64,000 nucleotides of DNA from Spirochaetota bacterium (GTDB lineage: Bacteria; Spirochaetota; Spirochaetia; Treponematales; UBA12059): NCBI GenBank assembly GCA_029547205.1, contig JAKPPT010000115.1, positions 1-64,000 of the forward strand, given 5' to 3'. The notes below the pieces were generated by a model. That model was given only the letters and a program-made list of their open reading frames with translations. It was not told the origin of the DNA and ran no database searches. Positions 9,854-15,405 of the stretch are shown here, in pieces. The stretch's first letter is position 1; every line of letters begins with the position of its first letter. Made by a program: the position numbers and the translations under genes.

Positions 9854-11584
9854 CTACAGATCAAGACTTCTCTGAGCTATTTTTTCCATAATATAGCTCA
9901 TAAAAGCTTCTGTACTCATCGTTCCCAGCTGTTTCCCGTCACGACAGCGAACTGACACTGCCTGTTCTTCTCGTTCTTTTGCGCCAACAACTGCCATATA
10001 AGGAATCTTTAACTGTTGTGCTCGACGTATTTTAGCATTCATGCGGTCTTCATCGAGCATTGCAATACTCCTCATACCGGAACTGCGCAGCTTATTGTTA
10101 AGCTCAACTGCATAATCATTAAAATCGGGACCAACAGGAATTACCGCTACCTGGTCTGGTGCAAGCCATACTGGGAATGCACCAGCGGTACTTTCTAGAT
10201 AAACTCCAAAGAAACGTTCAAGCGATCCCAGGAGAGCGCGGTGCACCATGTACGGTCGCTTTTTCTGGCCATCTGCATCGATATAGGTCATATCAAAACG
10301 ATCAGGCAGGTTAAAATCGAACTGGATCGTAGTCATCTGCCACTCGCGCCCAATAGCATCCTTTATTTTAAGATCAATCTTTGGACCATAAAATGCTCCG
10401 CCACCTTCATCAATTTCATACGCCAGCTTTTGCGTTTCTACAGCCTTGCGGAGCGATTCAAGCGCCTGATCCCAGCGAGCCGGATCGCCTACTGAATCTG
10501 CAGGACGTGTTGCAAGATATGCTTTTATTTCTGAGAAGCCAAGTGTTTTCCACATGTGCAGGCTAAAGCGCAGCACTTCTGCTATTTCATCCTCGATTTG
10601 TTCCGGTGTACAGATAATGTGCGCATCATCCTGCGTAAAACCCCGTACCCGCATAAGCCCATGCAGTACGCCCGAACGTTCATACCGATACACGGTTCCC
10701 AGCTCTGCCCAGCGAAGTGGCAAATCGCGGTATGACCGGAGCTGCGTTTTATAAATCATAATATGGAAGGGACAGTTCATCGGTTTGATGTAGTAATCGT
10801 CCTCATCGATTTTCATTGCAGCATACATGTTGCCCTTATAAAACCCAAGATGCCCTGAAGTTTCCCAGAGCCAGCTCTTGCCAACATGCGGTGTAAAGAG
10901 AATCTCGTAACCATTGCGGTAATGCTCAGAACGCCACCAGTTTTCCAGTTCCACTCTAAACCGACCAGCACGCGGATGCCAGTATACGAGACCTGGACCA
11001 GCCTCTTCATGTACCGAATAAAGATCGAGTTCTTTCCCAAGCCTACGGTTGTCACGCTTTTCTGCTTCTTCGAGCATTTTGAGATGTGCATCGAGTTCTT
11101 GTTTGTTTGCAAATGCATAAGCGTAAATGCGCGTTAACATCGAACGTTTTTCATCACCGCGCCAGTATGCACCTGCTATTGCTCTCAGCTTAAAAGCATC
11201 TGCAGGAAGATCTTTAGTCGATGCAACATGAGGTCCCCGACATAAATCAAAAAACGTGCCCTGCTCATAAATCGTGATAGTGCCCTCTTCGAGTTCATCG
11301 ATTAGTTCAAGTTTGAATGGCTCATCGGCAAAGAGTTTCTTAGCTTCCGCTTTTGAAACTTCTTTTCTTACAAACTCTGAACCTTGAGCAATAATTCTCC
11401 GCATTTCTTTTTCGATAGCGGGAAGATCTTCGGGTTGAATAGGTTTTGCAAACTGGAAGTCATAGTAAAACCCATCATCAATTGCTGGTCCAATTGCTAC
11501 TTTTGTTCCAGGAAACAGCTTGATGACTGCTTCTGCCATGACATGCGACAGTGAATGTCGCACTGTTTCGATAGGATACTTCAT
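9854..11584 (-). CDS. thrS: threonyl-tRNA synthetase lacking the TGS domain
   Basis: Charges tRNA-Thr. 576 aa, shorter than the usual ~640 because the amino-terminal TGS (N1) domain is absent; the protein starts directly with the N2 editing domain (RHSLSHVMAEAV, and CRGPHV with the metal-like Cys/His pair). Catalytic core: zinc-site Cys in PMNCPFHIM (about 270), motif 2 RYERSGVLHGLMRVRGFTQDD (about 300-320, zinc His follows), motif 3 HRALLGSLERFFGVYLE (about 450), then the anticodon-binding domain to the end. The start at 11584 follows AAGGAG. Absence of TGS fits spirochaetal enzymes as I remember them. A T-box leader precedes it, so expression should respond to uncharged tRNA-Thr. Confidence 0.96.
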   Translation of the reverse strand: MKYPIETVRHSLSHVMAEAVIKLFPGTKVAIGPAIDDGFYYDFQFAKPIQPEDLPAIEKEMRRIIAQGSEFVRKEVSKAEAKKLFADEPFKLELIDELEEGTITIYEQGTFFDLCRGPHVASTKDLPADAFKLRAIAGAYWRGDEKRSMLTRIYAYAFANKQELDAHLKMLEEAEKRDNRRLGKELDLYSVHEEAGPGLVYWHPRAGRFRVELENWWRSEHYRNGYEILFTPHVGKSWLWETSGHLGFYKGNMYAAMKIDEDDYYIKPMNCPFHIMIYKTQLRSYRDLPLRWAELGTVYRYERSGVLHGLMRVRGFTQDDAHIICTPEQIEDEIAEVLRFSLHMWKTLGFSEIKAYLATRPADSVGDPARWDQALESLRKAVETQKLAYEIDEGGGAFYGPKIDLKIKDAIGREWQMTTIQFDFNLPDRFDMTYIDADGQKKRPYMVHRALLGSLERFFGVYLESTAGAFPVWLAPDQVAVIPVGPDFNDYAVELNNKLRSSGMRSIAMLDEDRMNAKIRRAQQLKIPYMAVVGAKEREEQAVSVRCRDGKQLGTMSTEAFMSYIMEKIAQRSLDL

Positions 11585-11976
11585 AAAAGGTACTCCTTGC
11601 ACAGGATGCGCTTTTGTGCGCTATGCGTAAGGACGAAACAAGCAAAAGCCTCTCTTGCATAGAGTTCGATTGGCTTCTGCTGTCCTTGCCAACGGCCTTG
11701 ACAGCATACATGTTCCGCGGTACCACCTTACTTCGGCATTGAGGTTTGTGCTCGTCTGTCACAAACACCAGATGCCGCTCTCTACGCTCTATAACGGGAG
11801 CACCCGATACTGATTACTTACTACTTTGCTCAAGCACGTACACGGTAGCAGTATGAGCGTTCACCAGTACAGCTCCGGAGTGGTTTTCCGCTCTGCCGTT
11901 CCTCGCAGCCTCTCAGCCCAGGGGCATGCTTCTCTCATAGGCTTGCAGGGCATACTCGTCTCCATCAGCGCTTTGC
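11585..11976 (-). ncRNA. T-box leader (tRNA-sensing riboswitch) of thrS
   Basis: On the minus strand the leader contains the T-box sequence AAGGTGGTACCGCGG (11715-11729), essentially the consensus bulge that pairs with the CCA end of uncharged tRNA. About 110-250 bases upstream lies a Stem-I-like region: GAGAGAAGCA (specifier-loop-like), a GNTGNGA-type distal loop (GCTGAGA), and TATGAG pairing with CTCATA. A Thr codon (ACG, 11858-11860) sits next to CTCATA and is a candidate specifier, not a proven one. No U-tract terminator is seen after the T-box. Instead CCTT at 11629-11632 can pair with AAGG of the thrS ribosome site (11595-11598) around a GCGC stem, suggesting control of translation. The fold is hand-drawn. 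Confidence 0.85.
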
Positions 11977-11981
11977 ACCTT

Positions 11982-12010
11982 ACTATGCACTGGAACAAAA
12001 AATGAGTCAA
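11982..12010 (-). promoter_or_regulatory. promoter of the thrS T-box transcript
   Basis: On the minus strand TTGACT (12005-12010), a 17-base spacer and CATAGT (11982-11987) precede the leader; transcription would start near 11976. Confidence 0.5.
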
Positions 12011-15322: not shown

Positions 15323-15323
15323 G

Positions 15324-15405
15324 TGCGGTGAAGAGGACTTGAACCTCCATGCCTCTCGGCACTAGCACCTCAAGCTAGCGTGTCTGCCAATTCCACCATC
15401 ACCGC
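15324..15405 (-). tRNA. tRNA-Leu (GAG)
   Basis: Class II tRNA with a long variable arm. The acceptor stem GCGGTGA pairs with TCACCGC plus discriminator A. The anticodon arm is CTAGC-TTGAGGT-GCTAG, giving anticodon GAG (reads CUC/CUU). The variable arm TGCCGAGAGGCA and T-loop GGTTCAAGTCC are present. CCA is not encoded. It has its own promoter and terminator. Confidence 0.95.

Follow-up and report, generated by a model that had tools for sequence, protein, structure and literature searches.

T-box riboswitches have been reported almost exclusively from Firmicutes, Actinobacteria, Chloroflexi, Deinococcus-Thermus and Geobacter (PMC3766115), and none was found in six spirochaete genomes (PMC2494555). 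The G-U pair that closes their helix A2 is a known aminoacyl sensor, and translational T-boxes have been noted to carry inserts in this helix frequently (PMC7583486). Pairing between the base N of the UGGN bulge and the discriminator base of the tRNA is usual, not defining: it is seen in the majority of cases, with exceptions noted in TBDB (PMC7778990).

Our analysis of the window, i.e., the whole stretch of 64,000 nucleotides studied here, concerned the leader of thrS, which the first-pass annotation had described as a T-box in a spirochaete-like genome. Both parts of this description held. The Rfam covariance model RF00230 matches the minus strand from end to end (window positions 11977-11689, model positions 1-219 of 219) with E 2.7e-16, a strong match, though its 76.9 bits fall under the curated gathering cut-off of 93; just two of the five control genomes with RF00230 matches score above this cut-off, as do some of the matches in other genomes of the order. 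The T-box consensus AAGGTGGTACCGCGG is located at 11729-11715, and the same element occurs upstream of thrS in relatives. When the whole genome was searched, the leader before thrS was the single RF00230 match. The closest named relatives of ThrS are from the spirochaete metagenome-assembled genomes HGW-Spirochaetae-3, LacPavin and UBA6076. It is near certain that the thrS leader is a T-box with threonine specificity. The features of the locus, all on the minus strand, are as follows.

11982-12010, minus strand: promoter-like pair TTGACT-17-CATAGT, which would put the transcript start near the foot of Stem I; the pair with the 17-base spacing claimed earlier is present, but is weak and near chance (1 found, 0.6 expected)
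11871-11973, minus strand: Stem I, with K-turn (UGAUGGAGA/CUCCGGAGC), specifier loop AGUA/GAA, AGAGA bulge and distal loop GCUGAGA (double T-loop motif); from the RF00230 alignment, the family alignment and covariation
11882-11884, minus strand: specifier codon ACC (Thr), complementary to the tRNA-Thr anticodon GGU; from the RF00230 alignment, a cross-check of the frame and the tRNA in the genome
11807-11870, minus strand: Stem II with S-turn (GUGAA/AGUAA); from the RF00230 and family alignments, 9 of 15 pairs showing compensatory changes
11791-11806, minus strand: Stem IIA/B pseudoknot element (CGGGUGCUCCCGUUA); from the RF00230 alignment
11734-11777, minus strand: Stem III, with purines on its flanks; from the RF00230 alignment and RNAalifold
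11715-11729, minus strand: T-box sequence AAGGUGGUACCGCGG, comprising the A1 5' strand AAGG (11729-11726), the bulge UGGUACC (11725-11719) and the start of helix A2; from the RF00230 alignment and the sequence
11633-11718, minus strand: helix A2, GCGGAACA (11718-11711) with UGUUUCGU (11640-11633), from the canonical G-U pair outwards; from folding
11629-11632, minus strand: CCUU, the shared switch strand, whose predicted partner is the T-box AAGG (ON, helix A1) or the Shine-Dalgarno AAGG (OFF); from folding
11594-11633, minus strand: predicted sequestrator hairpin UCCUU-CGCA-GCGC-loop-GCGC-UGUG-AAGGA; minimum free energy -15.2 kcal/mol when folded by itself, z only -0.9
11593-11598, minus strand: thrS Shine-Dalgarno AAGGAG; from the sequence
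11589-11593, minus strand: Shine-Dalgarno spacer GUACC, complementary to the T-box bulge GGUAC (11724-11720) and proposed to form a helix with it in the OFF state; from complementarity, conservation and folding
9854-11584, minus strand: thrS, threonine--tRNA ligase (TIGR00418, E 1.7e-208, above its cut-off); start codon ATG at 11584-11582

The match of ThrS to TIGR00418 begins at the ninth residue, which leaves no space for the usual N-terminal TGS domain. The sole tRNA gene within the window is that of tRNA-Leu(GAG) (15323-15405, minus strand).

Stem I is about 100 nt long including the AGAGA bulge and the distal loop; the short Stem I without a double T-loop motif that is characteristic of classes III/IV was not found in this leader. 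Among the Stem I motifs listed by the first-pass annotation, the distal loop GCTGAGA has its place in Stem I of both the RF00230 and the family alignments, but the supposed TATGAG/CTCATA pairing had to be discarded, TATGAG lying on the AG-bulge side of Stem I and CTCATA in Stem II. In an alignment of 15 leaders, the RNAalifold consensus contains 50 pairs in Stems I, II and III, 22 of which show compensatory changes, and the K-turn, AGUA/GAA, AGAGA, the distal loop and the T-box sequence are conserved. The antisequestrator is canonical: UGG, complementary to the tRNA CCA end, lies in the 7-nt bulge that separates helix A1 from helix A2 (AAGG[UGGUACC]GCGGAACA...UGUUUCGU CCUU), and helix A2 is closed by a G-U pair. 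This helix carries an insert of about 70 nt, predicted to fold as two hairpins, because of which the RF00230 alignment chose a wrong 3' antiterminator strand (GGCCGUUGG). It was replaced by CGUCCUU further on, which forms the better pairing and hardly varies among close relatives; CGUCCUUACG, at the switch strand, is likewise near-invariant among them.

The specifier loop is aligned as GAA-A-ACC-A-CTCC-GGAG, giving a frame of specifier, one base, four bases and NGAG. Read in this frame, other leaders give GAC before aspS, UGG before trpB as well as trpX, and UAC upstream of a gene of the tryptophanase/tyrosine phenol-lyase family; as these codons fit their genes, the frame is right and the ACG codon initially taken for the specifier is wrong. 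That a threonine codon occupies the aligned position was correct, but the codon is ACC (11884-11882), and the ACG of GACGAGTA belongs to the other strand of the specifier loop. A wide regular expression for the specifier gave many false matches and was dropped. The genome encodes tRNA-Thr(GGT), matching the ACC specifier. The discriminator base of tRNA-Thr(GGU) is U73 in all 28 spirochaete genomes where this tRNA was readable, so in the window bulge UGGU the fourth pair would be U.U (N=U vs U73), and pairing of N with the discriminator base was not found for this T-box. The same U.U is seen across the window's family (f1), its sister family f5 and most of the f4 genomes tested. A tRNA-Thr with A73 that would fit N=U was looked for and not found, tRNA-Thr(GGU) and tRNA-Thr(UGU) both having U73. 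Most terminator-type relatives in family f13 (probably Sphaerochaetaceae) carry UGGA or UGGG, which are able to pair with U73, and all of the seven Chloroflexi-related thrS T-boxes carry UGGA (N=A), most of them with obvious terminator-like hairpins. For these reasons N=U looks derived within the order.

We consider, with good confidence, that thrS is controlled, most likely at the level of translation initiation, by a class I (long Stem I) T-box responsive to tRNA-Thr. The ACC specifier in Stem I would be read by uncharged tRNA-Thr(GGU), whose CCA end would pair with UGG of the T-box bulge; with this tRNA bound, helix A1 (AAGG:CCUU) would be held and the Shine-Dalgarno sequence left free (ON). 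When the tRNA is charged or absent, A1 would open and helix A2 would stay, CCUU could then take the Shine-Dalgarno AAGG as its partner, the bulge GGUAC, now vacant, could pair with the GUACC that follows the AAGG, and the resulting three-way junction would bury the ribosome-binding site (OFF). Folded with RNAfold under constraints, the OFF and ON states have -52.4 and -50.1 kcal/mol, respectively, a difference of 2.3 kcal/mol in minimum free energy calculations that ignore the tRNA, tertiary contacts and co-transcriptional order. In the ON fold as constrained, A1 and A2 are formed and UGGU is free; in the OFF fold A2 persists, and both CCUU:AAGG and GGUAC:GUACC are formed, including the previously suggested pairing of the Shine-Dalgarno AAGG with CCTT (11629-11632) around a GCGC hairpin. 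The sequestrator hairpin alone was no stronger than its shuffled versions (z -0.92). Several f5 leaders are predicted to form the same three-way junction, and burial of the Shine-Dalgarno sequence is predicted in relatives with varying partners: the partner is CCUU in only a few f1 relatives (clearly L001 and L087), and other strands bury it in the remaining f1 leaders.

Elsewhere the T-box bulge just reads the tRNA end. In the window's order it might have a second role, as GGUAC or GUACC, counted within 16 nt before the start codon, is present in 19 of 19 leaders of the window's family and in 21 of 26 leaders of f5 (N=U), vs 0 of 28 in the mostly terminator-type f13 and 12 of 415 other genes (2.9%). 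The motif is found only with N=U (49 of 81 leaders vs 0 of 42 for other N); one N=U leader (L193) has the wobble form GGUGCC in the spacer. Treponematales leaders with N=A have instead GGUU(C/U) at the spacer in 4 of 11 cases, vs 0 of 81 for N=U (Fisher p 1.2e-4, a value which, since the leaders are related, overstates their independence), and GUAC was found in the spacer of none of the 33 leaders with N=A. In the f5 alignment, the bulge:spacer helix is paired in 91.7% of cells (94.4% for the whole structure), and sliding of the partner strand by 1-3 columns reduces this to 29-57%. The predicted probability of the bulge:spacer pairing is 0.74 in f1 and 0.73 in f5, vs 0.42 and 0.49 with the interior shuffled, and 15 of 19 and 18 of 21 leaders, respectively, exceed their own shuffled control. 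A bulge:spacer helix in the OFF state is, by these comparisons and folds, probable. With somewhat greater reserve, we lean towards the reading that in one spirochaete order the T-box bulge doubles as the strand locking the ribosome-binding site; the tRNA and the start site would then compete for the same nucleotides, and N would co-vary with the Shine-Dalgarno spacer, not with the discriminator base. Neither the pairing of the bulge with the spacer nor the departure from the discriminator-base rule had been noted in the first-pass annotation. No description of a bulge pairing with the Shine-Dalgarno spacer was found in the T-box literature consulted, and one may exist for other species.

It could be argued, on the other hand, that only the sequestration of the Shine-Dalgarno sequence by the leader matters, GUACC being a general spacer preference of these genomes and N=U a drift to the common T-box consensus. 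In favor of this are AAGGAGUAC, which was also found before two other genes of the window, and the 32 of 81 leaders that have N=U without GUACC. Two clades of leaders with terminators or U-rich tails, L101-L111 (g17 of f4) and L210, L211, L217, L221 and L222 (g90 of f13), have N=U and lack GUACC, so that not every N=U can be put down to the spacer. Moreover, a test of independent pairs on the ThrS tree for N vs spacer was not significant, with one to four informative supported pairs and none contrary. However, a preference of this kind agrees poorly with the rarity of the motif before other genes compared with its frequency in f1 and f5, with a spacer that changes along with N (to GGUUC or GGUUU for N=A), and with the absence of the motif from most thrS genes without a detected T-box (L019 is an exception); we regard it as possible, though doubtful.

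An ordinary transcriptional T-box, with premature termination of the leader and an incidental complementarity to the Shine-Dalgarno sequence, would be in line with the clear terminators that follow the same T-box in many relatives (f13, f20 and g17 of f4) and in most of the Chloroflexi ones. In the window leader no convincing terminator was found. The earlier statement that there is none was essentially correct, although a single weak terminator-like hairpin is present at 11658-11642 (7 pairs, 3 G-C), at chance level (0.5 expected); it lies inside the helix A2 insert and therefore is no competitor of the antiterminator. Besides, 16 of the 19 leaders in the window's family lack a hairpin with a U-run, as do f5 platforms of 55-70 nt, a length often seen in f5, and transcriptional control of thrS here seems improbable. 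Two leaders, L183 and L192, have a strong hairpin and U-run together with GGAGUACC, possibly reflecting double control or an intermediate between the platforms. Even less probable, to a degree that makes it remote, is a T-box in decay that has lost the ability to sense tRNA-Thr, its N (U) being unable to pair with U73. The U.U at N:N73 in the window and its relatives should weaken tRNA sensing and counts against the explanation that we prefer; however, the rest of the aptamer retains invariant motifs and compensatory changes, the specifier remains ACC and the UGG:CCA pairing is intact. Translational control of thrS, as proposed in the first-pass annotation, is favored by the lack of a terminator combined with a Shine-Dalgarno hairpin that shares the antisequestrator strand, and by the family-wide lack of terminators combined with the conserved bulge:spacer complementarity, and it is likely that the switch acts at this level. 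What the computations show is the aptamer with its covariation, the threonine specifier, a matching tRNA, the lack of terminators in most family members and complementarities that are conserved; from these we infer that translation rather than transcription is switched and that the leader alternates between the two folds in vivo.

T-box elements are found across the class Spirochaetia. Of the 23 genomes in the window's family, 19 carry one, as do 65 of 197 (89 of 394) genomes of the order, nearly always directly upstream of thrS; in a sample across the phylum the count is 72 of 393 genomes, and as a rule there is one element per genome. About 145 elements were examined, 123 of them parsable as thrS leaders. 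T-boxes are common in Spirochaetia, mostly on thrS, as opposed to the range given by the earlier survey. Because the Rfam model scores some of the leaders above its cut-off, RF00230 matches in spirochaetes may already be present in databases, unremarked. The non-thrS targets include aspS, trpB, trpX, the tryptophanase/tyrosine phenol-lyase-family gene and acyl-CoA ligases. T-boxes with a Val (GUC), Ile (AUC) or Tyr (UAC) specifier (L130 1501-1738, L218, L226 and L229 in f13; L123 and L202-L204 in f10) precede genes of AMP-forming acyl-CoA ligases where the downstream gene is readable, and the N-terminus of the ligases in L130, L218 and L226 looks like a helix-turn-helix plus cupin. To our knowledge, AMP-forming acyl-CoA ligases have not been reported as T-box targets. 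The Anaerolineae/Chloroflexi thrS genes L044, L048, L052, L056, L065, L066 and L030 are among the closest non-spirochaete relatives. Comparison of the leaders suggests either a common transcriptional ancestor of the Chloroflexi-related and spirochaete thrS T-boxes or a transfer. With one gene and one aptamer, transcriptional and translational platforms occur side by side in related genomes, which makes it possible to trace and test how a riboswitch changes its output. A bulge:spacer helix, if real, would show in what way the N:N73 rule may be abandoned.

In comparison with known systems, the window leader shares with the class I T-boxes of RF00230 (e.g., those of Bacillus subtilis thrS and tyrS) the long Stem I with double T-loop motif, K-turn, specifier loop and AGAGA/distal loop, the Stem II S-turn, Stem IIA/B, Stem III, the T-box sequence and A1/A2 with the closing G-U, as well as control of thrS through a Thr specifier; it differs from them in the host phylum, the lack of a convincing terminator, N=U mismatched to U73 of tRNA-Thr and the 70-nt two-hairpin insert in A2. 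With the translational ileS T-boxes of Actinobacteria (Seliverstov 2005, PMC1262725; classes III/IV, PMC10482949) it has in common a hairpin sequestering the Shine-Dalgarno sequence in place of the terminator, and insertions in helix A2 (PMC7583486); unlike them, it has a long, not short, Stem I, precedes thrS, not ileS, and has a T-box bulge that is itself proposed to pair with the Shine-Dalgarno spacer. The thrS T-boxes of f13 and Chloroflexi have the same aptamer and the same gene, but mostly with terminators, mostly with N=A or G, which can pair with U73, and with no GUACC after the Shine-Dalgarno sequence.
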